Shown here piece after piece: positions 17,529-48,305 of a stretch of 64,000 nt of DNA (position 1 is the stretch's first letter; every line of letters starts with the position of its first letter). The notes under the pieces are model-generated. The model was not told the DNA's origin and searched no databases. It saw nothing but the letters and a program-made list of their open reading frames with translations. Position numbers and translations under genes: made by a program. The DNA comes from Natrinema caseinilyticum (GTDB taxonomy: Archaea; Halobacteriota; Halobacteria; Halobacteriales; Natrialbaceae), in assembly GCF_024227435.1 (NCBI RefSeq), contig NZ_CP100445.1, positions 1,054,001 through 1,118,000 of the forward strand. Direction: 5' to 3'.

Positions 17529-18695
17529 GTGCAACTCAATAGCATTCGGATCGTCGACTTGACTCGCCTCCTTCCGGGACCGTATGCCACCCAGCTGCTC
17601 AGCGACATGGGTGCCGAAGTGATTAAAATAGAGGATCCCGACACCGGGGACTACGCGCGGTTTATCGAGCCCATGGCGCCCAACGACGTCGGTGCCGTCT
17701 TCTCAGCGATCAACCGCGGGAAAAAGAGTGTCACACTCGATCTCAAAGACGATGAGGGCCGGGCGGCGTTCTACGAGCTGATCGAGGATGCTGACGTCGT
17801 CTTCGAGCAATTCCGACCCGGAGTGGCCGAACGCCTCGGTATCGACTACGAAACGCTCCGGGAGCGAAATCCGGACGTCGTCTACTGCTCGCTGTCGGGG
17901 TACGGCCAGGAGGGGCCGTACAGCGACCGAGTCGGTCACGACCTCAACTACGCCGGGTTCGCCGGCCTCGTCGATATGACTCGAGGCAGCACGGACGACG
18001 ACCCAGAGATACCGGGATACCCTATCGGCGATATGGCCGGTGGAACGTTCGCCGCGCTCAGCATCGTGAGCGCGCTACTGGACCGAGAGCTCTCGGGTGG
18101 CGGTGGGAACTACATCGACGTGTCGATGACCGATGCCGTGCTCTCGTTCTCACAGGCGGTTAGCTGCCTGGCGCTGTACGGCGATGATCCGCGTCCGGGC
18201 GAGACGGAACTGACCGGAAAATTTCCCTGTTACGATATTTACCGGACGGCGGACGATGAGTACGTAACGGTCGCCGCTCTCGAGCCCAAGTTCTGGCGGA
18301 ACCTCTGCGAGGCGCTCGGCCGCGAGGACCTGATCGATAAGCACCGAGCCGATGATGAAGCGACGCGCGAGGCCGTTCACGACGTGCTATCGGAAACGTT
18401 TGCGTCGAAGACCCGTTCAGAGTGGGAGGCCGAACTCGGGGAGAAAGACGTCATGCTCGGCATCGTAAAGAGTCCGAACGAGGCGCTAGCAGACCGCCAC
18501 ATCGAGAGTCGTGGGATCATCGAGGGTGCCGACGGGCCGCTTCCACGAATCGGGTATCCGGCCCAGGTCGAACGCGGCCTCGACGACGGTGATGAAACCG
18601 TTCCGGAGATGGGCGAACACACGAACGACGTGCTCGAGTCGGTCGGAATCGGCGAGGACGCTATCGAAGAGTTGCGCGAACGGGACGTCGTCTAG
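17529..18695 (+). CDS. CaiB/BaiF family CoA-transferase (class III)
   Basis: A 388-residue class III CoA-transferase, which moves CoA between acyl-CoA and free acids through an aspartyl-CoA thioester. The N-terminus has RIVDLTRLLPGPYATQLL, followed by the family strand AEVIKIEDP, and the catalytic Asp lies in GDMAGG (Asp168). The C-terminal part carries the family's PRIGYPAQV and MGEHTNDVLES segments. The GTG at 17529 gives the usual LNSIRIVDLTR opening and follows a TATA-like box at leaderless distance; a GTG at 17511 is an alternative. It is followed after 79 bases by acyl-CoA ligase 2 on the same strand. Closest roles in the family are formyl-CoA/carnitine, alpha-methylacyl-CoA racemase and succinyl-CoA:acid transfer; the acid is not known. 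Confidence 0.88.
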   Translation: MQLNSIRIVDLTRLLPGPYATQLLSDMGAEVIKIEDPDTGDYARFIEPMAPNDVGAVFSAINRGKKSVTLDLKDDEGRAAFYELIEDADVVFEQFRPGVAERLGIDYETLRERNPDVVYCSLSGYGQEGPYSDRVGHDLNYAGFAGLVDMTRGSTDDDPEIPGYPIGDMAGGTFAALSIVSALLDRELSGGGGNYIDVSMTDAVLSFSQAVSCLALYGDDPRPGETELTGKFPCYDIYRTADDEYVTVAALEPKFWRNLCEALGREDLIDKHRADDEATREAVHDVLSETFASKTRSEWEAELGEKDVMLGIVKSPNEALADRHIESRGIIEGADGPLPRIGYPAQVERGLDDGDETVPEMGEHTNDVLESVGIGEDAIEELRERDVV

Positions 18696-18774
18696 CGAAC
18701 GGTTCGGCCGTCAGCGGCTCCGATATCCTATTTCTGACGGGAAATATAAGTATTGCCACGATGACTGCTCTCCC

Positions 18775-20466
18775 ATGACGGATGACGTGCCATCAGTCGG
18801 CGAATTGACTCCATATCACTTTCACGAACGGGAGTGGGAGAGTTACGAAGCGCTCCGAGACGAATTCGAGTGGGAAATCCCGGATCGGATGAACATGGCC
18901 CAGTACGTCTGTGACCGACACGCGACGGACGAGGACACCGCCGGGCTGATTTACGAGGATAGTCACGGCCGTGAAGGGCAATACACGTTCGCAGAAATGA
19001 AAGCGGTGACTGACCGACTCGCGAACTACCTGACCGGCGCTGGCCTCGCCCGTGGGGATCGTGTTGCCATCTGCGTCCCGCAAAAGCCGGAAACTGCCCT
19101 CTCGCATATCGCTATTTGGAAGACGGGCGGTGTTTCCGTTCCCCTGTCGACGTTATTTGGCCCTGATGCGCTCCGCTACCGCCTCGACAACAGCGATGCG
19201 AAGATGGTGATCGTGGATGAAACGAACGTCGAAAACCTCCGGGAGGTCAAAGACGACCTCGACCAACTCGAGGAGATACTCGTGGTCGGCGACACCGAAC
19301 TCGAATCGGACGAATCCTCGTTCTGGACGGCCCTCCGGGAGAGTGCCGCCGAGTTCCAACCGGCGAGAACGACAGCAGAAGACGACGCCGTCATCATTTA
19401 TACGAGCGGGACGACGGGTGATCCAAAGGGTGTCGTACACGCACACAGAATGCTGCTCGGACAACTCCCCGGTTTCGTCTGCCTCTTCTGCAATGCGAGA
19501 CTCGAGGACGATGATGTCTTTTGGGTCGTCGCAGACTGGGCGTGGAAAGGATCGCTGTTCGACTTCGTATTTCCGGCGCTGTTCTACGGGAAGCCGGTGC
19601 TCGCATACGAAGAGCACGGTTCGTTCGATCCCGAAACGGCGTTCACGCTCGTCGAGCGACACGACCTGACGAGTCTGTATATTCCACCGACGGCGCTCCG
19701 TCGAATGATGAACGAAGTCGGTGACCCGGAAGAACGATACGATCCGCGCTCGGTTCGGGTTCTCGGAAGTGGCGGTGAGGCTCTCGGAAAGACGCTTCCA
19801 CGATGGGTCGAGGACGTCCTCGGCGCGACGGTACACGAAGGATACGGGCAAACGGAGGCATCGCCGCTGGTCGGCAACTGTGTCGAATACTTCGAGTACA
19901 AGCGTAACATCGGAAAGCCGCTTCCTGGCATCGAACTTGACGTTCTCGATGTAAACGATCGGACGTCGGTATCGGCCGGTGAAACGGGTGAAATTGCCGT
20001 GAAATCTAATTCCCCGAATCTGTTCAAGAGCTACTGGCGCAATCCCGAAAAAACGGAGTCTAAGTTCTACGGCGACTGGATGCTCACGGAGGACCTCGCG
20101 GTTAAAACGGAAGACGGCTATCTCGACTTCGTCAGCCGGAAAGACGACGTGATCATTTCGTCTGGGTACCGGATTGGACCAGAAGAAGTCGAAGACGCGA
20201 TCGCGAAGCACGAGGCCATCGCCGACGCTGGCGTCATTGGAGTATCCGACGAAAATCGCGGGAACATCGTGAAGGCGTACGTGACTGTCACGAAGGGCTA
20301 CGAACCGTCGGACGATCTTCGTCGGGCCGTCCAATCGTTCGTCAAAGATAATCTGGCGAGATACAAGTATCCGAGAGAGATCGAATTCATCGACGAACTG
20401 CCGAAGTCGACGACCGGAAAAATACGCCGGAGTTCCCTCCAAGAGATGGAAGAAAAAAGTCGATGA
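18775..20466 (+). CDS. Acyl-CoA synthetase (medium-chain/AcsM-like) 2
   Basis: A 563-residue ANL ligase activating a carboxylic acid to its CoA thioester. The A3 loop YTSGTTGDPKGVVH lies at about 208-221, the A5 region reads HEGYGQTEASPL, the hinge is DWMLTEDLAVKTEDGYLDFVSRKDDVI, and the catalytic Lys is in PKSTTGKIRRSSL. The N-terminal YHFHEREW segment and overall form match the acetyl/medium-chain acyl-CoA synthetase branch rather than the fatty-acid branch of ligase 1. It has strong full-length similarity to the product of 31699-33384 (same motifs and N-terminus), so they are paralogues. The ATG at 18775 is chosen since the frame upstream overlaps the CoA-transferase end. A likely operon with the CoA-transferase precedes the acyl-CoA dehydrogenase at 20688. 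Confidence 0.9.
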   Translation: MTDDVPSVGELTPYHFHEREWESYEALRDEFEWEIPDRMNMAQYVCDRHATDEDTAGLIYEDSHGREGQYTFAEMKAVTDRLANYLTGAGLARGDRVAICVPQKPETALSHIAIWKTGGVSVPLSTLFGPDALRYRLDNSDAKMVIVDETNVENLREVKDDLDQLEEILVVGDTELESDESSFWTALRESAAEFQPARTTAEDDAVIIYTSGTTGDPKGVVHAHRMLLGQLPGFVCLFCNARLEDDDVFWVVADWAWKGSLFDFVFPALFYGKPVLAYEEHGSFDPETAFTLVERHDLTSLYIPPTALRRMMNEVGDPEERYDPRSVRVLGSGGEALGKTLPRWVEDVLGATVHEGYGQTEASPLVGNCVEYFEYKRNIGKPLPGIELDVLDVNDRTSVSAGETGEIAVKSNSPNLFKSYWRNPEKTESKFYGDWMLTEDLAVKTEDGYLDFVSRKDDVIISSGYRIGPEEVEDAIAKHEAIADAGVIGVSDENRGNIVKAYVTVTKGYEPSDDLRRAVQSFVKDNLARYKYPREIEFIDELPKSTTGKIRRSSLQEMEEKSR

Positions 20467-31698: not shown

Positions 31699-33384
31699 CT
31701 ACTGGCGGACGCCCTGGCGCTCCTCGAGAGAGGTGCGACGGATTTTGCCGGAGGAAGTCTTCGGGAGCTCGTCGATGAAGTCGATCTCCCGGGGGTACTC
31801 GTACTTCGCGAGGCGGTCGCGAACGTCCTGTCGCAGGGCCTCTTTGAGCTCCGCCGACGCCTCGTACTCGTCCGCGAGCACGACGAACGCTTTCGGTACC
31901 TCGCCGCGTTCGGCGTCGGGGACGCCGATGACGCCCGCGTCTGCGACCGCGTCGCTGTTCGCTAACGCTTCCTCTATCTCGACGGGCCCGATGCGATAGC
32001 CCGCGCTGATGATGACGCTGTCCGTCCGCGAGACGAACTCGAGATAGCCATCCTCGTCGAGACGGCCGAGGTCTTCCGTGAGCAGCCAGCCGTCTGGGAC
32101 TTTCTCGTCGGTCTCGTTCGGTTTGTTCCAGTACTCTTTAAAGCAGACCGGATCGCCCTCGTATCGGACGGCGATCTCGCCCACCTCGCCGGGTTCGACC
32201 GTCCGCTCGGCCGTCTCCGGATCGACGATCGCGATTTCGTGGCCCGGGGCTCGTCGACCGATCTTCCCCTCGCGAGACTCGGCGAGCGCTGTACAGTCAC
32301 CGACGAGCATATTGGCTTCGGTCTGGCCGTACCCTTCGTGGACAGCGGCCCCGTCGAATACCTCGTGGGCCCACTCGACGATCGTCTGGCCGAGCGACTC
32401 ACCGCCACTGGGAAGACATCGGATACTGGAAACGTCCCATCGGTCCGGGTCGTCCATCTGCTCCATCATTCTGAGGGCTGTTGGGGGTCCGAAGAAGATG
32501 GTGACGCCGTAGCGTTCGATGATCGCCATCGCCGTCTCGGGATCGAACTCTTCGTCGGCGGTGTAGGCGACGACCGGGCGGCCATAGAACATGGCAGGGA
32601 AGACGACGTCGAACAGCGTCGCCACCCAGGCCCACTCCGACGGCGTCCAGAAGACGTCGCTGTCCCGCAGTTCCATGTTGCAGAAGCCCGTGACGACCAG
32701 CGGCAGGTTTCCGAGGAGGACTCGGTGTGCGTGTCGGACACCTTTCGGATCGCCAGTCGTCCCCGACGTGTAAATGATGATGGCGTCGTCCTCGGCGTCG
32801 GTTCGCACGGTCTCGAACTCCCGGGAGTGAGCGTCGATCAGTTCCCGGAACGTAAACTCGTCGTCCCCGGAGTCGACGTCACCGACGGTGACGACGGTTT
32901 CCAGCGACGGCGAGTCGGGCGCCACGTCTCGGACCGTCTCGACGTTCGCGCCGTCGACGAAACAGGCGACTGCGTCGGCGTCGTTCAGACGGTAGGAGAC
33001 GGCGTCAGTGCCGAACAGCGTGCTCAACGGAACGGAGACCGCGCCCAGTTTCCAGCAGGCCACGTGCGCGATGACCGTCTCGGGCCGTTGGCGCGTGTTA
33101 ATGGCGACCCGGTCGCCCCGCTCGACACCTCGAGTACGCATGGCGTTGGCCAGCGCGTTGGCGACGTTTCTGAGCCGCCGGAACGTGTACGTTTCGCTCC
33201 CACCATCGCCGTCGTCGGCGAGTAGCGCGACGCGCCCTCTTTCATCCGCCCAGCGGTCGCACACGTGCGTCGCCATGTTGAACGTCTCCGGCACCTCCCA
33301 CTCGAACTCCTCGAGGAGACGATCGTAGTCCGCCCATTCGCGCTCGTAGAAGTGATACGCATCGAGCCTGTCAGTCGGACACAT
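31699..33384 (-). CDS. Acyl-CoA synthetase (medium-chain/AcsM-like) 3
   Basis: A 561-residue ANL ligase, paralogue of the one at 18775-20466: both start with a YHFxEREW segment, share YTSGTTGDPKG (about 203-213), VHEGYGQTEAN, GWLLTEDLGRLDEDGYLEFVSRTDSVI and the catalytic Lys in PKTSSGKIRRTSL. It differs by a higher GC content and a more acidic composition. The ATG at 33384 gives the conserved MCPTDRLDAYHF opening; the frame is open to 33516 without matching sequence. It probably activates a different acid from its paralogue. It stands alone on the minus strand between the non-coding 30-31.7 kb block and the protein at 33681. Confidence 0.9.
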   Translation of the reverse strand: MCPTDRLDAYHFYEREWADYDRLLEEFEWEVPETFNMATHVCDRWADERGRVALLADDGDGGSETYTFRRLRNVANALANAMRTRGVERGDRVAINTRQRPETVIAHVACWKLGAVSVPLSTLFGTDAVSYRLNDADAVACFVDGANVETVRDVAPDSPSLETVVTVGDVDSGDDEFTFRELIDAHSREFETVRTDAEDDAIIIYTSGTTGDPKGVRHAHRVLLGNLPLVVTGFCNMELRDSDVFWTPSEWAWVATLFDVVFPAMFYGRPVVAYTADEEFDPETAMAIIERYGVTIFFGPPTALRMMEQMDDPDRWDVSSIRCLPSGGESLGQTIVEWAHEVFDGAAVHEGYGQTEANMLVGDCTALAESREGKIGRRAPGHEIAIVDPETAERTVEPGEVGEIAVRYEGDPVCFKEYWNKPNETDEKVPDGWLLTEDLGRLDEDGYLEFVSRTDSVIISAGYRIGPVEIEEALANSDAVADAGVIGVPDAERGEVPKAFVVLADEYEASAELKEALRQDVRDRLAKYEYPREIDFIDELPKTSSGKIRRTSLEERQGVRQ

Positions 33385-33680
33385 AGGGTGACAGATTACG
33401 AGGGAGGTAATACGAGTTGTGGTGGGCTCTACCGTATCACTCTGACCGATCTGTTGCGATACGGCGGAGGACTGGCTGGTCGTGCCAGCCGGTACAACAT
33501 CCATCTCTGTCGGCACTTCGAGCTACGGTCGGCGGACCCTCCTTTCGGGAAGGGATGTCTAACGGAAACGGCCAGAGGTTCGTTTGGGACGACAAATGAG
33601 AGTGACGATCAGCAGCCATGTCCGCTGGCTCGCTCACCGGGGGAGGGACACGTCCGGCGCACGGTCGTGGACGAAACCGA
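33385..33680. other. Intergenic region upstream of acyl-CoA ligase 3
   Basis: About 296 bases. The first part is an open extension of the ligase frame without family match, so it is treated as promoter sequence. Nothing else is recognised. Confidence 0.35.
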
Positions 33681-35959: not shown

Positions 35960-37624
35960 TCAGTCGTCGGCCGGGGAGTACGAGCCGACTGCATCGTCGG
36001 GGACGGTCCCGTCATCGTTCCACCCCCGAAGCCGATAGTATTCAGCTATCGCGTCCTCGAGGCCGGGGAGGTCGTACGGGAGCTGATCGTCCGACCTATC
36101 CATTCCACGTTTGTTGTTGAAGTGGCGCTCCAGTTCGACGACTCGGGAACCGACGTCGAGTAGGTCGCTGTAATCCGCCTGGAAGAGTTCTTCGTACTGG
36201 TTTTCGTCGATATATCCGTCCGAAAACGCACAAACGATGGCGCTATCGCGGAACCCGCCGACGTTCTCACGGGTGATCAGGACTTCCGGTTTTCCCTCGA
36301 GCGTCTCCGGATCGATTTCACCACGGTATTCCGGCCCCTGCATACGAGCGTACATATGGTCCGCGCCGCGATTGGCGACGGCGTAGCTCAGACCCTGCCC
36401 GTGCAGCACTCGGCCGTCATGCGCAGCGAATTCGAGGCCCTTCACCGTCCAATTCTCGACACCGAGTTCGTCGTGGAACCGCTCGACGCCCTCCGCGAGG
36501 AGATCACCGACCCCGTCGCGATAGGCGATTTTCTCGGTCAGTTCGTGGATCAGATCGACGTTTCCGAACTCGTCTTCCGAATCGAGATACGCCGCGACGG
36601 CGTCGCCTGCGCTGATGGTATCGAGCCCGAGAGTGTCGCAGAGTTCGTTCGACTTCATTACCGCTACCATATCGTCGACCATCACGTTGCTTCCGAACGC
36701 GAACACCGTTTCGAATTCCGGTCCTTCCGTTTCGAGTCCCGTCTCCTCGTCTCTCGTCGGAAGCTTGCATGCGAACGCACAGACCGAACAGGCGCCCTTC
36801 CTGTACTTCTTCTCTGCGACGGCCTCACCACCGATGCCGTCGGCGCCGTCGAACGAGTGCTCCTTGAAATACCGAGTGGGGAGCGAAAACTGGTCGTTGA
36901 TGAACTCCGTGTAGCTCGTCGTGCCCCGTTCGCGCATCATGTCGTCCGCGGTCGCTGCGGCCTGATGGACCTCTTGCTGGACGTCCGGGACGTCGATCGC
37001 AGGTCGAGAGTCACCCCGAAACGAGACGGTCTTGATGTTCTTTGCGCCGAAGACGGCGCCGAGTCCCCCCCGTCCGAACGCGCGACTGTCGTACGTCATC
37101 ACCGATGCGAATCGGACCCGGTTCTCTCCGGCGGGCCCGATCGTCACTAAATTCTCGCTCTCGAGTCCGTGATTCTCGTCCATGTACTCCGTTACTTCGG
37201 GAACCAACGCCTGCTCCAACTCTGGAACGGACTCGAACTCGACGCCATCATCGCGGATGTGTATCGCCAGGAGATCGTCGCTCTCGCCGACGAACTCGAC
37301 GGCGCTGTAGCCTGTATCCGCGAAGTTTCGCGAGAGGTACCCGCCAGCGTTGGTCGAGAGAAGGCCGTCCGTGAGCGGCGAGAGGCCGGTTAGGCTCATC
37401 CGGCCGGTAAAGCTCATCTGTGACATCTGTAGCGGTCCTGTCGCGAGATACAGCCGGTTTTCTGGCCCTAGCGGAGGGGCGTCAAACGGAATGCGTTCGT
37501 GGGCAAGTTTCGTCGCGACGCCACGGCCACCGACGAAGGTTGCGAGTTCCTCGTCGATGGGGGTTTCAGTAACTTCTCGGGCCCCGACGTCGACTGTGAG
37601 GAGCGGGCCTTCTGCGTGGAGCAT
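35960..37624 (-). CDS. Tungsten-containing aldehyde:ferredoxin oxidoreductase family protein
   Basis: A 554-residue AOR-family enzyme, cytoplasmic, using a tungsto-bispterin and one [4Fe-4S] cluster to oxidise aldehydes to acids with ferredoxin. The N-terminal domain has LLTVDVGAREV and FVGGRGVATKL; the pterin-binding stretch includes NLVTIGPAGENRVRFAS and SRAFGRGGLGAVFGAKNIK. Cluster cysteines are CSVCAFAC (Cys279, Cys282, Cys286) plus Cys465 in SAIVCAFSDG. All four ligands are present. Subfamily length is slightly short of the 600-residue Pyrococcus enzymes. It is divergent from a MoaD-like gene, 319 bases away, a pairing usual for pterin-cofactor enzymes. It could oxidise aldehydes produced by the LLM enzymes or alcohol dehydrogenase. 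Confidence 0.9.
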   Translation of the reverse strand: MLHAEGPLLTVDVGAREVTETPIDEELATFVGGRGVATKLAHERIPFDAPPLGPENRLYLATGPLQMSQMSFTGRMSLTGLSPLTDGLLSTNAGGYLSRNFADTGYSAVEFVGESDDLLAIHIRDDGVEFESVPELEQALVPEVTEYMDENHGLESENLVTIGPAGENRVRFASVMTYDSRAFGRGGLGAVFGAKNIKTVSFRGDSRPAIDVPDVQQEVHQAAATADDMMRERGTTSYTEFINDQFSLPTRYFKEHSFDGADGIGGEAVAEKKYRKGACSVCAFACKLPTRDEETGLETEGPEFETVFAFGSNVMVDDMVAVMKSNELCDTLGLDTISAGDAVAAYLDSEDEFGNVDLIHELTEKIAYRDGVGDLLAEGVERFHDELGVENWTVKGLEFAAHDGRVLHGQGLSYAVANRGADHMYARMQGPEYRGEIDPETLEGKPEVLITRENVGGFRDSAIVCAFSDGYIDENQYEELFQADYSDLLDVGSRVVELERHFNNKRGMDRSDDQLPYDLPGLEDAIAEYYRLRGWNDDGTVPDDAVGSYSPADD

Positions 37625-37943
37625 GGTGGGGTGGTACCCTGTGATAGTTTATCAAAGTAGGGGGACGATGAGAGAGAATCGATACCCTCCACTGGCCTAT
37701 CGTTCTTTAGTAGTCGTTGAAACGATTTACTCACCGCTCGCAGTAAAACGGCCAGCGAAAGCTCGCTGGACGTGAATTCGTGAGCGGGGTGTGCACTGAC
37801 GTTCAACGACTGCTATTGCTCTCCGTCGATCGACCGGGACGGTTCACTGTCTGACTCCAACAGCGTACCGTCCAAGGGTCCGACGATCGGTGAGGATCGC
37901 TGGAACCTCGGTATTAAAGTAATTAGTCATCAGACCGTTAGAT
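37625..37943. other. Divergent promoter region between the AOR and MoaD-like genes
   Basis: About 319 bases. It holds both promoters; a TATA-like TTAAAGTAATTA lies at about 37914-37925, 20-30 bases before the MoaD-like ATG. No GTGCCAC copy was found in it. Confidence 0.4.
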
Positions 37944-38240
37944 ATGGAGGTAGAAGTCACCCTCTTTGGACCCCTTCGTGATCCCGTCGGCGAGAAATCG
38001 ATAACGCTTTCGCTTCCGGCGGACGCCACCGTCGAAGACGTACTAGATCAACTGACGGCGGACTTTCCGAGTATGCGCGACCCATTGTACGGAGATTACG
38101 GTTCGATCAGCGACAACGTCGTCCTCACGAAAAACAAGGTGAATATCGCCACCCTGGAGGGTGTCGAGACGAAGCTCAGCGACGGCGACACTCTTCGCCT
38201 TTCTCCCCCTGTGACCGGCGGCACGGGCGTCGAGCAGTAG
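37944..38240 (+). CDS. MoaD/ThiS-family ubiquitin-like sulfur carrier with a C-terminal extension
   Basis: A 98-residue beta-grasp protein of the archaeal MoaD family: VEVTLFGPLRDPVGEKSI, then ATVEDVLDQL, and a C-terminal strand with GDTLRLSPPVTGG. In working MoaD/SAMP proteins the chain ends in Gly-Gly, whose C-terminus is adenylated and thiocarboxylated to carry sulfur to molybdopterin. Here five more residues (TGVEQ) follow the diglycine at 92-93. It must be clipped, or act at an internal GG, or be inactive. Its position divergent from the AOR gene suggests service to the tungsten-pterin cofactor. Confidence 0.85.
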   Translation: MEVEVTLFGPLRDPVGEKSITLSLPADATVEDVLDQLTADFPSMRDPLYGDYGSISDNVVLTKNKVNIATLEGVETKLSDGDTLRLSPPVTGGTGVEQ

Positions 38241-38290
38241 CTCTTGAACACGTGCTCGTTCCAATCGGAATCGGCACGTCGATTTGCACC

Positions 38291-38297
38291 GTGCCAC
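38291..38297 (+). promoter_or_regulatory. GTGCCAC motif upstream of LLM gene 4
   Basis: One GTGCCAC copy, 80 bases before the ATG at 38377 and just upstream of the TATA-like TTATTTATT at about 38340-38348. This matches the position of motif copies before the NTF2-like gene 2, CoA-transferase and carboxylase genes. Confidence 0.35.
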
Positions 38298-38376
38298 GTC
38301 TCCCTTCTCGGCGGAACACGGTGTGCAATCTAGAGGTAGTTATTTATTCGTTTTTGATGAAGGCCGCGACGGAGCG

Positions 38377-39579
38377 ATGAACACAGCACTCGACTTCGGC
38401 ATCTTCCAGATGCCGGAAGTACGACCGGAGCGGAATTGGACGTTGTATTTCGATCAGATCGTCCAGGAAGCGCGGCTCGCTGAGGATCTCGGCTTCGACG
38501 AATACTGGGTCGGCGAGCACCACACGAAAGCTCACGAAACGGTTCCCGATCCGCTGATGATGCTCTCGCGAATCGCCGAGGCAACTGAACGGATCCGTCT
38601 CGGGCCAGCGACGGTCAATCTGACCTACGAGATCAACGACCCGTTCAACGTGGCGGAGAAACTGGCGTTTCTCGATCAGCTTTCGAACGGCCGTGCCAAC
38701 TACGGCTTCGGAGCCGGCGCACTCCCCCGCGACATGGCGATGTTCAACGTCGATGAGGAGCGCCAAAAGGACATCATGTGGGAAGCGATCGACGTCATCG
38801 AAACGTATACCGATGCCACCGAACTGACGGATTTCGACGGAGAGTTCTTCCAGTACGAGGATCGTATCGTCCAACTTCCACCCCTTCAAGAAGAGCCGCC
38901 GACAGCGGTCGCCGGGTTCACCTCGACCGGCTCGTACTCCGGCGCGATCGAAGGCGGACATCGGCCGCTCACTCTGCCGTTTTCGCCACTTTCCGCGCCC
39001 GATAATCCCGATGCGCTCGGCCTGAAGAGAATGGGGGAGACGATAGACGAAGCCGCCACTTCCCTCGGTCGAGACCCTCAAGCTGCTCGCCGAGAGTGGT
39101 CGATCGCCCGGGACGTTTACGTGACGGACAGCAAAGAGCAAGCGCTCGAAGAGATTCGAGAGGGCGCCGAGGAGTACTACGATTACATGCTCGGTCTCGG
39201 TGATGGTGGCCTTCTCCAGTTCGTGAAAACGGATCCCGAGCAAACCAGAGACGATCTCACCGTCGAGTGGTTAGTCGAGAATCTGCCGATGATCGTCGGG
39301 TCACCCGACGAGTGCATCAAACAAATCAGCGCCCTCCACCAGGAGGTCGGTGGGTTTGGAACGCTCATCGTCAACTCTCACGACTGGATGCTGCCGGAGC
39401 AGAAGTGGCGTGACTCGCTCGAGTTGTTCGCCCAGGAGGTCATGCCCGCTTTCCAATCACGCAAGGGCCCCAGAGAGATCGAAAAAGAACAGGTTCCCGG
39501 GTATGAGCCGGTCGAACTCGCAGCTGACGAAGATCCGTTCGCGATCGACTCGTCGAAAGTCATCGGTACGGGTGACTAG
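38377..39579 (+). CDS. LLM-class flavin-dependent oxidoreductase 4
   Basis: A 400-residue luciferase-like TIM-barrel protein. Landmarks are LDFGIFQMPEVRPERNWTLY, the EYWVGEHHTKA strand, the LGPATVNLTYEINDPF loop, and ANYGFGAGALPRDMAMF for the cofactor site. It differs in length and sequence from the 455-residue pair and from the short 335-residue form, so it is a third type in this island. The ATG at 38377 follows a TATA-like TTATTTATT at 30-37 bases and a GTGCCAC copy. Like the others it could use FMNH2 or F420; substrate is unknown. The MoaD-like gene ends 136 bases upstream. Confidence 0.9.
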   Translation: MNTALDFGIFQMPEVRPERNWTLYFDQIVQEARLAEDLGFDEYWVGEHHTKAHETVPDPLMMLSRIAEATERIRLGPATVNLTYEINDPFNVAEKLAFLDQLSNGRANYGFGAGALPRDMAMFNVDEERQKDIMWEAIDVIETYTDATELTDFDGEFFQYEDRIVQLPPLQEEPPTAVAGFTSTGSYSGAIEGGHRPLTLPFSPLSAPDNPDALGLKRMGETIDEAATSLGRDPQAARREWSIARDVYVTDSKEQALEEIREGAEEYYDYMLGLGDGGLLQFVKTDPEQTRDDLTVEWLVENLPMIVGSPDECIKQISALHQEVGGFGTLIVNSHDWMLPEQKWRDSLELFAQEVMPAFQSRKGPREIEKEQVPGYEPVELAADEDPFAIDSSKVIGTGD

Positions 39580-40722: not shown

Positions 40723-40927
40723 TTTATGAGTTGATTATTCTAACTGGTACTGAAGCCCGCGAAGCCGAGCAGCGAGACGTTGTCTTTCGAATTTCTCGGC
40801 GAGTGGATGACGAAGTCTCCGGTGAGACGACGATCGAAGGTGCGAATCGAGTGATCTCGCTGTCGACGAAGCATCGTACGAAGGCTGGCCGAAAGGTACT
40901 GAAGGTCCATCCTATTCGATATCAGAA

Positions 40928-41100
40928 TTGACCGCCGATCACGTGATGACTCTGGAAGACGTATGCCGAATGGGGTACCTTCGTATCCCGCCAGCGGCGA
41001 CCGGAACGGACGTCTCCAAACGACTCGAGACCAGCCATTCGGCAGTCGTCGAGCGTCTCCGGTGGGCTGAGCGAAGTCCCGTTCGGCTCCGCAGAGCAGG
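40928..41100 (+). pseudogene. Remnant of a bacterio-opsin-activator-type HTH regulator
   Basis: A short frame matches the HTH (bat-type) C-terminal domain: VMTLEDVCRMGYLRIP, then AATGTDVSKRLETSHSAVVE and ERLRWAE. Haloarchaeal Bat-family regulators end with this module, in which YxxGYxxxP is followed by a winged helix. The N-terminal sensory domain is absent and the segment has no credible start. It lies just upstream of the carboxylase operon, where a dedicated regulator might once have stood. Confidence 0.5.
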
Positions 41101-41237
41101 TCGTCTTAAAAGGCCGATATATATCCCGGCGCTTCGTCCTAATCTAGTTATGTGACAACGTGGCACAGGGCCGTGCATGTTGTCGACAATCGAGGCCAAC
41201 TCGCCCGAAACGGGGCGAGCAAAGAGAGGAAGTGACG
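41101..41237 (+). promoter_or_regulatory. Leader of the carboxylase operon
   Basis: The segment has TATA-like TTAAAA and ATATATAT at about 41106-41122, a GTGGCAC motif at 41160-41166, and a Shine-Dalgarno-like GAGAGGAAG 5-13 bases before the ATG at 41238. A good ribosome-binding site and a long leader set it apart from the leaderless genes of the island. Confidence 0.45.
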
Positions 41238-43397
41238 ATGGCGGCTGAGGAGCAAAACGATCCTGAACTGCTGTCGCTCGACACGGGCGGTACGATGACC
41301 GACACGTTCGTCGTCGACCACGAGGGAAACTACACGGTCGGAAAGGCACAGACGACGCCGGAAGACGAGTCCGAGGGTGTGATTTCCTCGTTCGACGACG
41401 CACTCGGCTACTGGGGCACCTCGATCGAGGATTCGGCGGACACCCTTCGAGGGACCGTCTATTCCGGGACGGCGATGCTCAATCGCCTGCTCGAGCGGGA
41501 AGGCGAGGGGGATATCGGCGTCATCACGAACAGGGGATTCGAGGATACCCACCGGTTCGGTCGCGGCATCCAATCGTGGGTCGACCTCCCCTACTCCGGT
41601 CGGCTACACGCCCGCGAACACGAGCACCCCGACCCGATCGTTCCGCGCGAGAACATTCGCGGCGTCCGGAGTCGGATCGGGATGTCGGGTCAGGAACTCG
41701 TCCCGCTCTACGAGGAGGAAGCCCGTGAAGCGGTCGAAGACCTGCTGGATCGAGGCGTTCGCGTCATTTGCGTCTCGCTCGTGTACTCGTATCAGAATCC
41801 GGGACACGAACGGCGGATCAAGGAAATCGCCGAGGAGGTCATGGCCGAACGGAGTGTCGACGTCCCGGTCTGGCTGTCGTCCGAACAGAATCCCGTTCGG
41901 GGCGAACTGCCGCGAGTGAACAGCCTGATCCTCGAGGCGTACGCCGTCGATCCGTCGCGAGAGCAGCTCCACGGGATCGAAGAGGCGCTCGAGGAACAGG
42001 GCAACGACGCGCCGTTCCGGGTGCTGTCGTCCTCCGGCGGGACGATCTCGCCGGATCACGACTGGCTCGTCGAGACGATGATCTCCGGCCCGATCGGCGG
42101 AATCTTCGGAGCCGAGTTCCTCGCCGACGAACTCGGCATCGACAACCTCGTCTGTTCGGACGTCGGCGGGACGAGCTTCGACGTCGGGCTCATCACCGAG
42201 GGACACTATCCGACTCGCTGGGACCAGAGTCTCGCGCAGTTCATGGTGAACATCCCGATGACGGCGATGGACACGATCGGCTCGGGAACGGGGTCTTACG
42301 TCCGCGTCGACAAGGCGTCGAACCGTCTCGAGGTCGGGCCGGACTCCGCGGGCTATCAGGTCGGCGTCTGTAACGAGGAAAGCGGCCTCGAGACGCCGAC
42401 GGTGACCGACTGTACCGCGATGCTCGGCTATCTCAATCCGGACTACTTCCTCGGCGGGGACATCGACCTGAACGTCGATCGGGCCGAGGAGTTCATCGAA
42501 GAGAGAGTCGCCGGGCCGCTCGATCAGGACCCCTACGAGACCGCCCGCGGCGTGCTCGACATCGTCGAGCGCAACATGACGAACGAACTAAACGCGATGA
42601 TCCTGGGACTCGGCTACTCCCCGGAGAATTACCACCTCGTCAGCTACGGCGGCGGCGGGCCGCTGCACGCGGCCGGCTACACGAAGAACCTCGAGTTCCG
42701 CGACGTGCTCATTCCGGACTGGGCGGCCGCGTTCTCGGCGTTCGGCTGTGCGACGGCCGACTACGCCTACCGGTACGACCACTCGATGGACCTGCTGATT
42801 CAACCGGACCTGAGCAACGTCGACGCCGTTGCCACGGCGCTGACCGAGACGCTCCAGGAACTGCGCGACCAGGCCGAGGACGCCTTCGACCGGGACGGGA
42901 TCGAGATCGACGAGATGCAGTTCGATCCCGCCGTCCGGATGCAGTACACCGGCATGCTCGACGATCTCGAGGTGACGATTCCGCGGGAGATCTGGTCGGG
43001 CGAACTCACCGCCGAAGACGTCGTCGACGTCATCGACGTCTACGAGCGGGAGTTCGAGCGCGTGTTCCAGCGCGCCGCCCAGAGCCCCGAACAGGGATAC
43101 ACCGTCACGATGGCCGTCGGAACCGGCATCGCACCGTCGCCGAGTCCGACGCTCCCGGAAGAGGACCCGGTCGGCGAGACGCCGCCGGAAGCGGCCAGCC
43201 GCGGCGAACGAGAAATTTACTGGGACGGAACCTGGCACGACGCCGACCTGTGGGAGATGTCGAAGCTACAGGCCGGCAACGTCGTCGACGCGCCGGCGGT
43301 CATCGAGGCGCCCGCGACGACCACGCTCGTCCCGCCGGGATTCGAGGCACCGCTCGACAGAAACCGCATCTTCCACCTGCAGCAAACCGATCAATGA
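41238..43397 (+). CDS. Acetone-carboxylase-like beta subunit (hydantoinase A/AcxA family)
   Basis: A 719-residue HyuA-type protein, nearly the same length as AcxA of Xanthobacter (about 717). The ASKHA-like ATP-binding start is LLSLDTGGTMTDTFVVD; further parts are STGTAMLN-like (SGTAMLNRLLE), the middle PVWLSSEQNPVRGELPR, and the SDVGGTSFDVGLI phosphate loop. In acetone carboxylase AcxA activates substrates with ATP, while AcxB and AcxC form the rest of the (alpha-beta-gamma)2 enzyme, which carboxylates acetone to acetoacetate using Mn2+. Simple hydantoinases (HyuA) lack the gamma subunit found here at 45660. A strong ribosome-binding site precedes the ATG. The stop overlaps the next start (ATGA). 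Confidence 0.85.
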   Translation: MAAEEQNDPELLSLDTGGTMTDTFVVDHEGNYTVGKAQTTPEDESEGVISSFDDALGYWGTSIEDSADTLRGTVYSGTAMLNRLLEREGEGDIGVITNRGFEDTHRFGRGIQSWVDLPYSGRLHAREHEHPDPIVPRENIRGVRSRIGMSGQELVPLYEEEAREAVEDLLDRGVRVICVSLVYSYQNPGHERRIKEIAEEVMAERSVDVPVWLSSEQNPVRGELPRVNSLILEAYAVDPSREQLHGIEEALEEQGNDAPFRVLSSSGGTISPDHDWLVETMISGPIGGIFGAEFLADELGIDNLVCSDVGGTSFDVGLITEGHYPTRWDQSLAQFMVNIPMTAMDTIGSGTGSYVRVDKASNRLEVGPDSAGYQVGVCNEESGLETPTVTDCTAMLGYLNPDYFLGGDIDLNVDRAEEFIEERVAGPLDQDPYETARGVLDIVERNMTNELNAMILGLGYSPENYHLVSYGGGGPLHAAGYTKNLEFRDVLIPDWAAAFSAFGCATADYAYRYDHSMDLLIQPDLSNVDAVATALTETLQELRDQAEDAFDRDGIEIDEMQFDPAVRMQYTGMLDDLEVTIPREIWSGELTAEDVVDVIDVYEREFERVFQRAAQSPEQGYTVTMAVGTGIAPSPSPTLPEEDPVGETPPEAASRGEREIYWDGTWHDADLWEMSKLQAGNVVDAPAVIEAPATTTLVPPGFEAPLDRNRIFHLQQTDQ

Positions 43398-45655
43398 GTA
43401 AACCAGACCAACAACCGGATTTCGAAGAGACCCAGTACGAGCGGGTCGACCCCCCGATCGGGTGGGACGGCCAGACGCTCCACGAGATGCTCGCGGAGAG
43501 CGAACGCCTCCGCGAGGAGACCGAACGCTACTACGGTATCGAGGACCTCGAACTGAAAGAGGAACAGCCGTTCGAGTACGAACAGATGTACTCCCAGCTG
43601 CGCGGGGCGTTGGTGTCCGCACGGGAGACCGCACTGCACGTCAGCGCCTCGCCGATCGTCCGCGAGATCGGCGAGCTCTGTTTCCAGGTGTACACGCCGG
43701 AGGGCGACTGCATCGCGCTCTCGACGGGGATCATCGTCCACGTCCACACCGGTTCGCTGGCGATCAAGTACATGATCGAGCAGGACTACGAACACGACCG
43801 GAGCATCCAGCCCGGCGACATCTTCTGTAACAACGACAACGACCTCGGCAACGTTCACACGACGGACGTCCACACGATCGTCCCGATATTCCACGAGGGT
43901 GAACTCGTCGCGTGGGTCGACGGCGTCACCCACCAGGTCGACATCGGCGGGATGACCCGCGGCCACGACCAACTGGCCAGTACGACCCGGTACGAGGACG
44001 GGCTCTACGCCACCTGCGAGAAGATCGGCGAGAACGACAAGATATACCAGGACTGGCGCGACCGCGCACAGCGAGCCGTTCGGACGCCGATGTACTGGGA
44101 CTTAGACGAGAAGTGTCGCCTCGCCGGCTGCCACATGGTCCGGGACGCGGTCGAGTCGATGATCAACGACGTCGGCGTCGACACGTTCAAGCAGTTCTCC
44201 CGGGAGGCGGTCGAGGAGGGCCGACAGACCCTCCACTCGCGCGTCAAAGAGCGGTTCTTCCCCGGGACGTACCGCGACGCCAGTTTCATGCCCGTTCCGT
44301 TCGAGGACGAGGCCTGGAAACCCTCGGCCAAGCAGGACATGATGAACCACCTGCCGGTCGAGGTGACCGTCGACGAGGAGGGCGGTCTCGAACTCGACAT
44401 GGAGGGGGCGAGCCCGCCGGGCCCGCATCCGTACAATTGCGCGGAGGGGGCGATGGAGGGCGGTCTCTGGGTGTCGCTCACGCAGAGTATCCTCCACGAC
44501 GGGAAGGTCAACGACGGCTCGTACTTCGCCGTCGATACGAACTATCCCGACGGCAGTATCGTCAACCCCGACGATCCGAGCCTCTCGTACCACACGTCGT
44601 GGGGCTCACTGATGCCGGCGTACAACGCCTTCTGGAAGAACGTCTCGCGGGCCTTCTTCGCCCGCGGGTTCCGCGAAGAGGTGGTCAGCGGCTACTCCGA
44701 GACCGGCGACCCGGTACAGGGCGGCGGCCGGTACGAACCGATGGACGACTACTTCCCGGTGGCGCCGTTCGAACACTCCTGTCAGGGGCTGGGCGCCTCC
44801 GCCGTCCGCGACGGACTCGACTACGGCTACGCGATGTGGAATCCCGAGTCCGACATGGGCGACGTCGAGGAGTGGGAACTCATCGAGTGGGGTCTGCCGT
44901 ACCTCTCTCGACAGGTGAAACCCAACACCGCCGGGCACGGCAAGTACCGCGGCGGAACCGGCTGGGAGGGAATCAGAACCGTTTCCGACAGCGAGGACGT
45001 CTCCCTGTACAAACACGTCGTCCCCGGCGTCGGCTTTACGACATCGGGGATGGCCGGCGGCTACCCCAATTCGCTGAACTACTCGCTGCGCGCCCACGAT
45101 ACCGATCTGGACGAACGTCTCGAGAACGAGGACCCGTATCCGATCGGTGACTCGCCGACGGGGTCGTTCGAAGAGCAAATCGAGGGCGACGTAAAGCGCA
45201 GCCAGAAGGGGATGTTCTTCCCCGAAGAGTTCGAGAACGGAGACCTGCTCCACTACCAGATGGGCGGTGGCACCGGCTACGGCGACCCGCTGGAGCGACC
45301 GATCGACCTCGTCGTCGAGGACGTCGAGGAGGGCATCTACACGACCGATATCGTCGAGCAGGTGTACGGCGTCGTCGGCGAGTTCGACGAGGACAATCGC
45401 GAGTTCACGCTCGACGAGGAAGCGACCGACCGGCGCCGCGAGGAACTGCGAACGGAACGCCGGGAGGAGACCCGATCCTACGACGAGTTCCACGAGGAAG
45501 AACGCGAGCGACTCGAGGACGGCGACATCAGCGACCCGTCGAAGTGGATGTACGAGGGCGTGTTCGACCAGTCCGACGACTGGGCGGCGTTCTTCCGCGA
45601 GTTCTGGGACTTAGACGAGACGTTCGAATTCGACGCGGAACTGATGGAGGCGTAA
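43394..45655 (+). CDS. Acetone-carboxylase-like alpha subunit (hydantoinase B/AcxB family)
   Basis: A 753-residue HyuB/AcxB-family protein, close to the approximately 776 residues of AcxB. Family segments include the GDIFCNNDNDLGNVHTTDV region, GELVAWVDGVTHQVDIGG, the conserved HSCQGLGAS block and the QMGGGTGYGDPLERP motif near the C-terminus, where catalytic-metal ligands are found. The start overlaps the previous stop by four bases, typical of translational coupling. The family also covers acetophenone carboxylase and hydantoinases; presence of a gamma subunit and a ligase in the operon favours a ketone carboxylase. GC content and codon use are higher than in the flavin island, suggesting different origin. 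Confidence 0.87.
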   Translation: MSKPDQQPDFEETQYERVDPPIGWDGQTLHEMLAESERLREETERYYGIEDLELKEEQPFEYEQMYSQLRGALVSARETALHVSASPIVREIGELCFQVYTPEGDCIALSTGIIVHVHTGSLAIKYMIEQDYEHDRSIQPGDIFCNNDNDLGNVHTTDVHTIVPIFHEGELVAWVDGVTHQVDIGGMTRGHDQLASTTRYEDGLYATCEKIGENDKIYQDWRDRAQRAVRTPMYWDLDEKCRLAGCHMVRDAVESMINDVGVDTFKQFSREAVEEGRQTLHSRVKERFFPGTYRDASFMPVPFEDEAWKPSAKQDMMNHLPVEVTVDEEGGLELDMEGASPPGPHPYNCAEGAMEGGLWVSLTQSILHDGKVNDGSYFAVDTNYPDGSIVNPDDPSLSYHTSWGSLMPAYNAFWKNVSRAFFARGFREEVVSGYSETGDPVQGGGRYEPMDDYFPVAPFEHSCQGLGASAVRDGLDYGYAMWNPESDMGDVEEWELIEWGLPYLSRQVKPNTAGHGKYRGGTGWEGIRTVSDSEDVSLYKHVVPGVGFTTSGMAGGYPNSLNYSLRAHDTDLDERLENEDPYPIGDSPTGSFEEQIEGDVKRSQKGMFFPEEFENGDLLHYQMGGGTGYGDPLERPIDLVVEDVEEGIYTTDIVEQVYGVVGEFDEDNREFTLDEEATDRRREELRTERREETRSYDEFHEEERERLEDGDISDPSKWMYEGVFDQSDDWAAFFREFWDLDETFEFDAELMEA

Positions 45656-45659
45656 ACTG

Positions 45660-46175
45660 ATGGTAGAAACAGATCGCAACCAGATCGAGAAGCTCATCGA
45701 CGGCGACCTGCAGTGGGAAGAACTGCGAAACGACGTCCTTCCGGACCCGAAGGACGGCCAGCGGTTCGAGGTGACCCGCGAGATCCTCCTGGACCGCGTC
45801 GACTGGGACGACCCGATCCTCGTTCCGCTGAACGACCACCTCTTCGCCGTCGGTACGGACGACGGCCGGATCGTGAAAGCCGAGTGCGGCCACGAGTTCG
45901 GCCCGCTCGAGGACAACTGGAAGACCGAGTGTCAGGTCCGCGTTCGCGAGAGCGAAGACGAGATGCGGGATCTCTACCCCGAGTGGATGACGCCCGACCC
46001 CGACTGGACGTTCCAGCTTCGGGAGTTCTTCTGCCCGGAGTGTTACACGCTGCTGGACGTCGACGCCGTCCCGGCCGGCTATCCGGTGTTGAAGCCCTTC
46101 GATCCCGACGTCGACGCCTTCTACGAGGAGTGGCTGGGAGAACCGGCGCCGGACGCGACAGAGGTGAATCAGTGA
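45660..46175 (+). CDS. Acetone-carboxylase gamma-subunit-like protein
   Basis: A 171-residue protein of the acetone carboxylase gamma family (AcxC, about 168 residues). It has EITRDILLDR-like opening (EVTREILLDRVDW), a CGHEFGPLEDNWKTEC pair, and CPECYTLLDVDAVPAGYP. Its cysteines may bind a metal. Among hydantoinase-type complexes this subunit is specific to acetone-carboxylase-type enzymes and argues against a hydantoinase for the operon. It follows the alpha gene after four bases. Confidence 0.85.
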   Translation: MVETDRNQIEKLIDGDLQWEELRNDVLPDPKDGQRFEVTREILLDRVDWDDPILVPLNDHLFAVGTDDGRIVKAECGHEFGPLEDNWKTECQVRVRESEDEMRDLYPEWMTPDPDWTFQLREFFCPECYTLLDVDAVPAGYPVLKPFDPDVDAFYEEWLGEPAPDATEVNQ

Positions 46176-46182
46176 GGGTGCA

Positions 46183-47790
46183 ATGAGCGAACCAATCACG
46201 GTCGCGGGGACGACCGAACCCGGGACGACCCTGAAGGACGCCTTCGAGACCAGCCTCCGGAAGTACGCGGATCGAACCGCCGTCGTCGACGGCGATCGGT
46301 CGCTCACCTACCGAGAACTGGATCGGCGAGCCAACGCCGTCGCTCGCGGCCTCGTCGAACGCGGTGTCGACGTCGGCGATCGGGTCGCCCTCGTGATGTC
46401 GAACCGCCTCGAATACGTCGTCGCCGACCTGGCGGTGATCAAAGCGGGGGCCGCGAAGCTCCCGCTAAACGACATGCTCACGGCCGAGGAGTTCGAGTTC
46501 ATGCTCTCGGACTCCGGCGCCGAGACGGTCGTCTGCGGGCCAACGTTCACGGACACCATCGCGGCGATTCGAGAGGAGTTACCGACACTCGAGACGGTCG
46601 TCGGTATCGAGGACGCCTCGCCGGAGGGGTTCGTCCCGTTCGAGGACCTCGACGGGGACGAGCCCGACCCGCCCGACCAGTCACCCGGCGTCGACGACGT
46701 CGCCGGTCACTACTACACCGGCGGCACCACCGGCAAGCCGAAGGGCGTCGTCCACACCCACGACGGGATCACGACGAACGTCTACGCGCACATCGTGGAA
46801 CTCGGCGTGACGGGCGACGATACGCTCCTGTTGATGACGCCGCTGCCACACTCGGCGGGGATGTTCTGCTGGAGCGCCCTGCTGACCGGGGGGACCGCGA
46901 TCATCAGGGCCGGCTTCGATCCGGACGCCGCCCTCGAGTTGATCGAACGCCACGGGGTGACCTGGACCTTCATGGTCCCGACGATGATCTACCGCGTCCT
47001 GGATCGTCCGGACCTCGAGTCCGCGGACACGTCCTCGCTCGAGAGTCTGGTCTACGGCGCGGCCCCGATGACCCCCGCTCGGCTCCGCGACGGACTCGAG
47101 GCGTTCGGGCCGGTGTTCTTGCAGTTCTACGGCCAGACGGAGGTGCCGAACCTCATCACGACGTTCGGGAAGGACGAGCACCGGCGGGCGGTCGAAACCG
47201 ATCGCGACGAGCGGCTCTCGTCGGCCGGAAAACCGTGTCTGATGGCCGACGTGCGCATCGTCGACGCCGAAACCGGCGACCCCGAAGACCGGGTCGATAC
47301 CGGGGAAAGCGGCGAAATCCTCGCGAGGTCGCCGTACGCGATGGCCGAATACTACGAGCGGCCCGACGCGACCGCCGAGACGGTCGTCGACGGCTGGGTC
47401 AGAACGGGTGACATCGGTCGGATCGACGAGGACGGCTACGTCTACCTGCTCGATCGGGCGAGCGACCTCATCATCTCCGGCGGGATGAACGTCTACTCGA
47501 CGGAAGTCGAAGAAGCGCTCGACGAGCACGACGGTATCAGGGAGGTCGCGGTGATCGGCGTCCCAGACGACGACTGGGGCGAAGCGGTCGTGGCCATTGC
47601 GGTCCCCCGCGACGACGTCTCCCCCACCGAAGACGACATCCTGTCGTTCGCCGACGAGCGCCTCGCTGACTACAAGAAACCTAAGTCCGTCGAGTTTCGC
47701 GACGAGATTCCCAAAACCCCGTACGGGAAGATGGACAAGAAGGCCCTTCGGGAACCGTACTGGGAAGACGAGGATCGGGCCGTCGGCTGA
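46183..47790 (+). CDS. Acyl-CoA ligase of the carboxylase operon (possible acetoacetyl-CoA synthetase)
   Basis: A 535-residue ANL ligase: A3 loop YYTGGTTGKPKGVVH (about 176-190), where the usual Ser is Gly; FLQFYGQTEVPNL for A5; GWVRTGDIGRIDEDGYVYLLDR for the hinge; and the catalytic Lys in PKTPYGKMDKKALR. It begins 8 bases after the gamma subunit, so it is part of the operon. Acetone carboxylation yields acetoacetate, and this ligase may activate it to acetoacetyl-CoA; an analogous arrangement in Aromatoleum pairs acetophenone carboxylase with benzoylacetate-CoA ligase. Substrate remains an inference. Confidence 0.85.
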   Translation: MSEPITVAGTTEPGTTLKDAFETSLRKYADRTAVVDGDRSLTYRELDRRANAVARGLVERGVDVGDRVALVMSNRLEYVVADLAVIKAGAAKLPLNDMLTAEEFEFMLSDSGAETVVCGPTFTDTIAAIREELPTLETVVGIEDASPEGFVPFEDLDGDEPDPPDQSPGVDDVAGHYYTGGTTGKPKGVVHTHDGITTNVYAHIVELGVTGDDTLLLMTPLPHSAGMFCWSALLTGGTAIIRAGFDPDAALELIERHGVTWTFMVPTMIYRVLDRPDLESADTSSLESLVYGAAPMTPARLRDGLEAFGPVFLQFYGQTEVPNLITTFGKDEHRRAVETDRDERLSSAGKPCLMADVRIVDAETGDPEDRVDTGESGEILARSPYAMAEYYERPDATAETVVDGWVRTGDIGRIDEDGYVYLLDRASDLIISGGMNVYSTEVEEALDEHDGIREVAVIGVPDDDWGEAVVAIAVPRDDVSPTEDDILSFADERLADYKKPKSVEFRDEIPKTPYGKMDKKALREPYWEDEDRAVG

Positions 47791-48305
47791 GTACCCCGCT
47801 CGGTGCTCGGCCCCCTCGCCGACGGCGACGGAGTATCCGAAACCACGACGGCGGGGATCGCTTCCCCGACAACGAGCGTTGGGTCACAGAGTATCGAGCG
47901 GACATCGACGCAGTTTCGGATATCGCCGATCGCGGAGACCCGTCGAGAGAGCGCGTTCCGTGGAAACCGGAGCGGGACGACTCGTCACTGGAGAGGGACA
48001 CCTCGAGAGTGCCGCGGCCCACCGCGAGCTGAGATCGAAACCCACACAGACGACGCTTGCAGAGCGGGGCCGAAACCACATCGGTCAGATCAGCAGGCCA
48101 GGCCCCTCGTGCCGGGGAATTCCCCTCCGTTCAGACAGTGTGGATGTCGACAGTTTCAGTTTCACTCCGGTTGGCTCGATTATATACGAAACCCGGTCCT
48201 ACATCGGTAGGAGAGGGAGCAACTCGTGGGATCGCTTCGGTCCATCACGCACTCCCCCGACACACCACTTCCCCTACCCCAGGGACAGAAAACCGATCAC
48301 ACAAT
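47791..48305. other. Intergenic stretch, nothing recognised
   Basis: About 515 bases after the carboxylase operon. No repeated motif, hairpin or gene could be seen; GC remains high in the first half. Confidence 0.35.

Follow-up and report, generated by a model that had tools for sequence, protein, structure and literature searches.

Acetone carboxylase (AC), whose three-chain form AcxABC from Xanthobacter autotrophicus is represented by PDB entries 5SVB, 5SVC and 5M45, has been described as phosphorylating acetone and bicarbonate at the beta subunit in an ATP-driven manner, with condensation following at the metal of the alpha subunit (PMC5543143). The same account names alpha His150, Asp153, His175 and Glu89 as the Mn ligands, and reports a contact between alpha-Glu85 and beta-Asn578 that breaks on channel opening (PMC5543143). 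A published precedent for the joining of a carboxylase to a CoA ligase is provided by the apc-bal operon of A. aromaticum (PMC4729919). As regards archaea, the portions of two papers that touch on AC list it merely as an annotation (PMC10547907; PMC2670198), while a passage on a deep-sea bacterium names AC together with acetoacetyl-CoA synthetase in a paper that also mentions "Lokiarchae-" (PMC8805636). Our search of the open-licence literature in PubMed Central (PMC) recovered no work joining AC and haloarchaea, and earlier work may exist. Acetone has also been the subject of older work in Sulfolobus. Here, we present a four-gene operon of the haloarchaeon Natrinema caseinilyticum, located at positions 41238-47790 of a 64,000-nucleotide stretch of DNA (RefSeq assembly GCF_024227435.1, contig NZ_CP100445.1, positions 1,054,001 to 1,118,000 of the forward strand; henceforth the window), which an earlier note made from the letters alone had proposed to be an AC operon with an attached CoA ligase.

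Judging from its gene content, we consider it probable that this is a functional-type AC operon of a Natrinema-like haloarchaeon, the products of which would convert acetone to acetoacetate and thence to acetoacetyl-CoA. It comprises four tightly packed open reading frames in the order beta, alpha, gamma and AMP-forming acyl-CoA ligase, where, in keeping with the Xanthobacter nomenclature (PDB names), beta denotes the chain encoded first and alpha the one that follows:

41238-43397, + strand: AC beta subunit, the HyuA-type, nucleotide-binding chain, 719 amino acids (scores, Pfam Hydant_A_N/Hydantoinase_A/Hydant_A_C, tree)
43394-45655, + strand: AC alpha subunit, the HyuB-type, Mn/Fe-binding chain, 753 amino acids (scores, Mn ligands)
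45660-46175, + strand: AC gamma subunit, 171 amino acids, with three of the four Zn cysteines, the first being Ala (PF08882, 4.6e-36; 145 bits to 5svb_C)
46183-47790, + strand: AMP-forming acyl-CoA ligase, 535 amino acids, a proposed acetoacetyl-CoA synthetase (PF00501/PF13193, PRK06187 subfamily, AC-linked ligase clade, adjacency to PF08882 in other genomes)

The best Pfam E-values per protein, from 4.6e-36 to 1.6e-88, exclude chance as the source of these assignments. The ATG of alpha overlaps the stop of beta (ATGA, 43394-43397), as expected from the coupled starts reported in the earlier note, whereas the ligase follows after a gap of 7 bases rather than the eight given there; the gap between alpha and gamma is 4 bases, and the four genes are probably co-transcribed. 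Briefly, the proposed pathway would run as follows. With ATP, beta would phosphorylate its two substrates, giving phosphoenolacetone from acetone and carboxyphosphate from bicarbonate; these products would reach the Mn/Fe site of alpha via an internal channel and condense there to acetoacetate, with gamma probably playing a structural role. The adjacent ligase would then combine acetoacetate, CoA and ATP to yield acetoacetyl-CoA, which host thiolases might split into two acetyl-CoA; Thiolase_C gives 13 matches in this genome, with 12 passing the cut-off.

The identity of the carboxylase is carried by scores and trees. Beta gives 694 bits to Xanthobacter AC beta (5m45_B) versus 394 to the acetophenone carboxylase gamma subunit ApcC, 248 to 5-oxoprolinase and 230 to N-methylhydantoinase, and alpha gives 590 bits to Xanthobacter AC alpha (5m45_A) versus 148 to ApcD. 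Likewise, gamma gives 145 bits to 5svb_C, aligning over nearly its full length, and 29.5 to the short Apc subunit. The alpha, beta and gamma chains of 753, 719 and 171 amino acids compare with 776, 717 and 168 in Xanthobacter. For the trees, loci (L numbers) were drawn from one scan of genome contigs, taking the best 80 of 145 matches, and this sampling is biased to close relatives. In the beta tree (84 rows with four references, built by a quick method and rooted at the midpoint; the program flagged a number of long branches, including that of Xanthobacter), the window lies within a 73-row AC clade together with the Xanthobacter enzyme (SH-aLRT 100), with ApcC, oxoprolinase and hydantoinase outside. 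The alpha tree (55 rows, careful method), which includes Xanthobacter alpha and uses three non-AC loci as the outgroup, agrees with this placement. The three subunits are encoded together, and both large chains group with the characterised AC rather than with hydantoinase, oxoprolinase or Apc. The claims of the earlier note that the host is an archaeon and that large chains of AC type, with AcxA/AcxB lengths, are followed by a gamma subunit are accordingly upheld, and the grouping with hydantoinases or oxoprolinases that it had held out as the contrary outcome is not seen in the beta tree.

The same evidence bears on two other identities. The Pfam families of the large chains carry hydantoinase and oxoprolinase names, as would suit a misannotated hydantoinase, oxoprolinase or lactamase pair; yet the operon neither groups with HyuAB/OplAB nor wants for a gamma subunit, which aligns near full length with that of AC, and the beta placement together with the gap between 694 and 248 or 230 bits makes such a pair scarcely credible. 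We hence treat a hydantoinase or oxoprolinase identity as ruled out by scores, tree and gamma. An aromatic-ketone carboxylase of the acetophenone type, working with a Bal-like ligase, would find a parallel in apcABCDE-bal, where the same carboxylase-plus-ligase operon logic is seen (PMC4729919). However, the window has one HyuA-type chain among its four genes instead of two, none is left over for ApcE (no search for ApcE was made elsewhere), the scores lie far under the ApcA-D model cut-offs, beta groups with AC and not ApcC, and Glu89 stands in place of Asp. This makes an aromatic substrate highly improbable, and acetophenone carboxylase as such is ruled out by scores and subunit make-up. The earlier note had further relied on gamma to set the operon apart from hydantoinases. 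This stands insofar as the window gamma is of AC type; however, a short PF08882-like subunit is also found in acetophenone carboxylase and related clusters, and gamma is therefore not diagnostic of AC alone: it is score, tree and Glu89 that separate the types.

The AC clade itself splits in two. One part holds the window along with archaeal loci from Halovenus, Natronomonas, Halorientalis, Haloglomus, further haloarchaea, Lokiarchaeota, Jordarchaeia and Archaeoglobus, and bacterial ones from Sulfobacillus, an actinomycete, Dehalococcoidia, Desulfarculaceae and Kyrpidia; the beta tree supports this part with a value of 97 and the alpha tree with 100/100. The other part holds the Xanthobacter AC, many bacteria, one Jordarchaeia locus, the Natrinema-type haloarchaeal operons and a second AC copy from the window's own genome. 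We found no characterised enzyme within the window's sub-branch in these trees, where the Xanthobacter AC is the sole characterised AC reference, and the open-licence PMC literature returned no laboratory study of this branch. Lokiarchaeota and Jordarchaeia AC gene sets (L044-L046, L048-L052, L054-L057 and L060; all are complete except L044, L048 and L052, which a contig end cuts) form the nearest group to the haloarchaeal ones. As a further observation on cluster make-up, a second alpha copy without its own beta is often present in haloarchaeal AC clusters (L017-L022, L077, L079, L085, L096, L103, L108; L037:9578-12292); the copy of Haloglomus L037, placed between gamma and the ligase, arose separately according to the alpha tree.

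Within the active site, all four Mn/Fe ligands (H150, D153, H175 and E89) are kept in the window alpha. Every AC-type locus with a readable alpha, namely the window and 82 of 82 others, has Glu89, whereas this position is Asp in all six non-AC loci read (L023, L024, L026-L029) and also, by eye from the printed alignment, in ApcD and N-methylhydantoinase. The gate pair, in contrast to the Glu and Asn of the Xanthobacter AC, is changed to Arg at alpha-85 and Asp at beta-578. With rows grouped by the beta tree, the window's sub-branch has Asp578 in all of its 31 beta rows, as against none of the 42 other AC rows (41 loci rows and Xanthobacter), although one Apc-like locus, L024, has it too. Alpha-85 is basic in 30 of the 31 sub-branch loci, the remaining one, L054, having Thr. 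A strictly compensating exchange of Glu85/Asn578 for Arg/Asp is only partly supported: Lys or Arg at alpha-85 is also common alongside Asn578 elsewhere, and charge pairing is hence not obligatory. As for the Zn site of gamma, the first of its four cysteines is replaced in nine of the 14 readable haloarchaeal sub-branch loci, the window included (L042 is readable only in part). We considered this loss as a sign of decay and rejected it, since seven bacterial AC loci (L080, L092, L093, L095, L097, L105, L107) keep none of the four cysteines while the rest of the chain is conserved. Further, the activity of the A. aromaticum AC is reported to be restored without added Zn (PMC10865871), for which reason we do not count the four-Cys site as a defining feature of the family.

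The window ligase, one of 48 acyl-CoA ligase matches in its genome, is a generic FadD-like enzyme by model (PRK06187, 483 bits; cut-off 476). It falls far from the acetoacetate--CoA ligase family TIGR01217 (19.6 bits versus a cut-off of 520.9), which is not among the best 25 of 108 NCBIfam families for this protein, and a search of the window's genome gave no TIGR01217 protein over the cut-off. In a ligase tree of 72 rows, 28 of them from ligase loci of its own genome, it forms a 27-row clade (100/99, starred) with ligases that lie beside AC genes of different AC branches. This clade, which includes the ligase of the second own AC (L003 and L111 being the same gene), excludes 26 of the 27 own-genome ligase rows that are not themselves AC-linked; the exception, L110, lies away from AC genes and adjoins an amidase and an IclR gene. 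Thus, the window ligase belongs to what we name here the AC-linked FadD-like ligase family. The linkage is recurrent: such a ligase lies downstream of gamma in nine of the 14 haloarchaeal sub-branch loci (eight within 70 bases, and L037 after the second alpha) and in nine of the 14 Natrinema-type loci with a gamma. In a control independent of the AC-based sampling, comprising 155 genomes of the class, six of the nine ligase matches with E <= 1e-140, the window included, abut a PF08882 gene; PF08882 itself has 14 matches in this set, spread over 12 of the genomes, and eight of these matches lack such a ligase next to them. The built-in acetoacetate ligase of the earlier note survives in part, as the family is often found beside AC genes; it is, however, a separate gene with a generic FadD-like model, and acetoacetate is its predicted substrate.

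Acetoacetate as the product is best supported here by the finding that two unlike ligase families occupy the same place. In L053, L058 and L061, which belong to the window's sub-branch, the AC genes are immediately followed by a ligase well over the equivalog cut-off of TIGR01217, and L075 and L107, from the other part, likewise have one over the cut-off at this place, the position being after gamma in all but L061, where it is after alpha. All five loci are bacterial, and they represent five of 93 loci searched, a figure that includes duplicates and non-AC loci. This bears on the possibility that the same chemistry is applied to a larger aliphatic ketone, such as butanone or a longer methyl ketone, with the FadD-like ligase activating a longer 3-oxo acid. 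Such a role would be in line with the separation of the sub-branch from the structurally characterised AC and with a ligase that scores as a generic acyl-CoA ligase and not as TIGR01217; further, specialisation would be possible given that the same genome has a second AC, accompanied by a ligase of its own, and the title of the paper on the A. aromaticum AC speaks of an aliphatic ketone carboxylase. Against it stand the acetoacetate--CoA ligases directly downstream in L053, L058 and L061 of this very sub-branch, and, among the Pfam-scanned neighbours, the lack of any with a recognised role in the metabolism of longer-chain ketones, a possible exception being a luciferase-like monooxygenase (38284-39579). 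On balance, we deem a larger aliphatic ketone decidedly unlikely as the substrate.

A number of observations weigh against the conversion of acetone to acetoacetyl-CoA by this operon. Both the carboxylase function and its substrate are predictions, and as the window lies outside the sub-branch of the characterised enzyme, it may act on another ketone. The models that fit the ligase are all generic FadD-like ones, and a CoA-transferase pair (PF01144) is encoded elsewhere in the genome, such that the ligase need not be the sole route. Apart from L053, L058 and L061, the sub-branch loci searched have no acetoacetate ligase, including L062 of the Sulfobacillus group, which is close to L058 (1.9 kb downstream). 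Moreover, five of the 14 haloarchaeal sub-branch loci are without an AC-linked type of ligase downstream of gamma (L040 offers only 1.9 kb to inspect); three of the nine close ligase matches (in G133, in G033 and on contig C2 of G000, the window's genome) are not beside a PF08882 gene; and the linked clade leaves out the ligases of L107, L064 and L102, the one that immediately follows gamma in L092 and the second ligases of L035-L037.

Turning to the history of the operon, the window's genome (three contigs, 4.77 Mb) carries its second AC at G000:C1:618000-637000 (L003). PF08882 matches are present in nine of 28 genomes of the same genus, and the large chains beside eight of these nine are Natrinema-type or non-AC. 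The ninth is a gamma fragment only (L025:9107-9361), which shares 97% identity across 63 residues with the gamma from the second own AC and is probably a decayed AC locus. In these 28 congeners, searching for gamma thus yielded no orthologue of the window operon. At the DNA level, positions 41258-47791 match Halovenus L030 at 78%, the match stopping at the operon ends; the only further similarity consists of weaker matches between the window ligase and the other ligase of L030. These sharp ends and the outcome of the gamma search suggest a lateral transfer of the four-gene unit. The earlier note had proposed a different history from a G+C content higher than that of the island to the left. The contrast is real (64.8% in the operon versus 57.6% in the rest of the window to the left, with 58.4% to the right), but 20 samples of 5 kb give the chromosome a mean of 63.4%, a median of 64.1% and a range of 55.3-68.5%; hence, the operon is normal for the chromosome, the low-G+C flanks are the unusual part, and the argument for a foreign operon from composition is rejected. 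A different history is instead likely on phylogenetic grounds.

Upstream of beta, three features can be made out:

41225-41235, + strand: purine-rich Shine-Dalgarno-like stretch AGAGGAAGTGA, just 5' of the beta ATG (read from the sequence)
41117-41124, + strand: possible TATA element ATATATAT, a conjecture read from the sequence
40883-41071, + strand: probable relic of a regulator of the HTH_10 (bacterio-opsin-activator) type, immediately 5' of the carboxylase genes (PF04967, tblastn)

The first corresponds to the Shine-Dalgarno site of the earlier note. The relic scores 26.5 bits with PF04967 (cut-off 23.1) and is 25% identical over 64 amino acids to the L031 regulator (tblastn, E 8e-4), whereas intact HTH_10 genes lie directly upstream of beta in L030, L031, L033 and L034. 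As only this weak relic was found upstream of the window operon, its regulation would appear to be lost or to act in trans. In this light, we also weighed a laterally acquired cryptic copy, its genes intact but poorly expressed and its regulator decayed, with the second AC doing the work. The weak regulator relic where related loci keep an intact gene, the sharply bounded block shared with L030, the lack of an orthologue in the gamma search of 28 congeners and the second AC in the genome are all consistent with it; however, the four frames are open, the active-site residues are conserved, a Shine-Dalgarno-like stretch is present, and regulators can act in trans. Such a state, which is compatible with the operon encoding an AC, strikes us as unlikely. 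Elsewhere in the window, an adjoining aldehyde ferredoxin oxidoreductase (other strand), a ThiS/MoaD-like protein and the luciferase-like monooxygenase lie to the left of the operon (35960-39579), and three more acyl-CoA ligase genes are present (10859-12499, 18511-20466 and 31699-33516).

In broader terms, the enzyme type is already known from bacteria, and the operon is ordinary in kind. Returning to the reading of the window as an AC operon, we incline, by a modest degree, to the wider view that it belongs to an uncharacterised second major branch of AC (haloarchaea, Lokiarchaeota/Jordarchaeia, Archaeoglobus, Sulfobacillus, Dehalococcoidia and Desulfarculaceae) with a rewired gate, in which a basic alpha-85 faces Asp at beta-578, and that in haloarchaea a new acetoacetyl-CoA synthetase from outside the AacS subfamily travels with the carboxylase. 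If so, biotin-free ATP-dependent ketone carboxylation would be an archaeal trait with a gene set testable in cultivable haloarchaea, and acetone use in brines would be linked with the metabolism of acetyl-CoA. Asp at the alpha/beta gate, present throughout the sub-branch, would let the published channel mechanism be tested on a natural variant, and the Lokiarchaeota assemblies with AC genes hint at ketone carboxylation in Asgard archaea.

Set against the known systems, the window operon comes close to the Xanthobacter AcxABC in its three chains and their lengths, its His-Asp-His and Glu89 ligands and the near-full alignment of gamma. It differs in lying in a separate sub-branch (in trees from which the A. 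aromaticum, Rhodobacter and Helicobacter AC are absent), in having Arg/Asp rather than Glu85/Asn578 at the gate and one gamma Zn cysteine fewer, and in the FadD-like ligase that follows gamma. With the Natrinema/Haloterrigena-type AC operons (L017-L022, L077, L085, L103 and others) it shares the beta-alpha-gamma-ligase order and the ligase family, but these branch with the Xanthobacter AC, and in several of them the cluster also includes an additional alpha copy and an HTH_10 regulator. The second AC of its own genome likewise has the beta-alpha-gamma order, at 48-51% identity to the window; it differs in tree position, in its divergent ligase and HTH_10 regulator and in the major facilitator superfamily transporter after gamma. 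The ApcABCDE and benzoylacetate-CoA ligase (Bal) system of A. aromaticum, as described in PMC4729919, resembles the window in placing a carboxylase and a CoA ligase in one operon, while differing in its two HyuA-type chains, its ApcE, its Asp instead of Glu89 and its low scores with the window proteins. Finally, AacS (TIGR01217), to which the window ligase does not belong, shares with it the proposed reaction and the place after AC genes.

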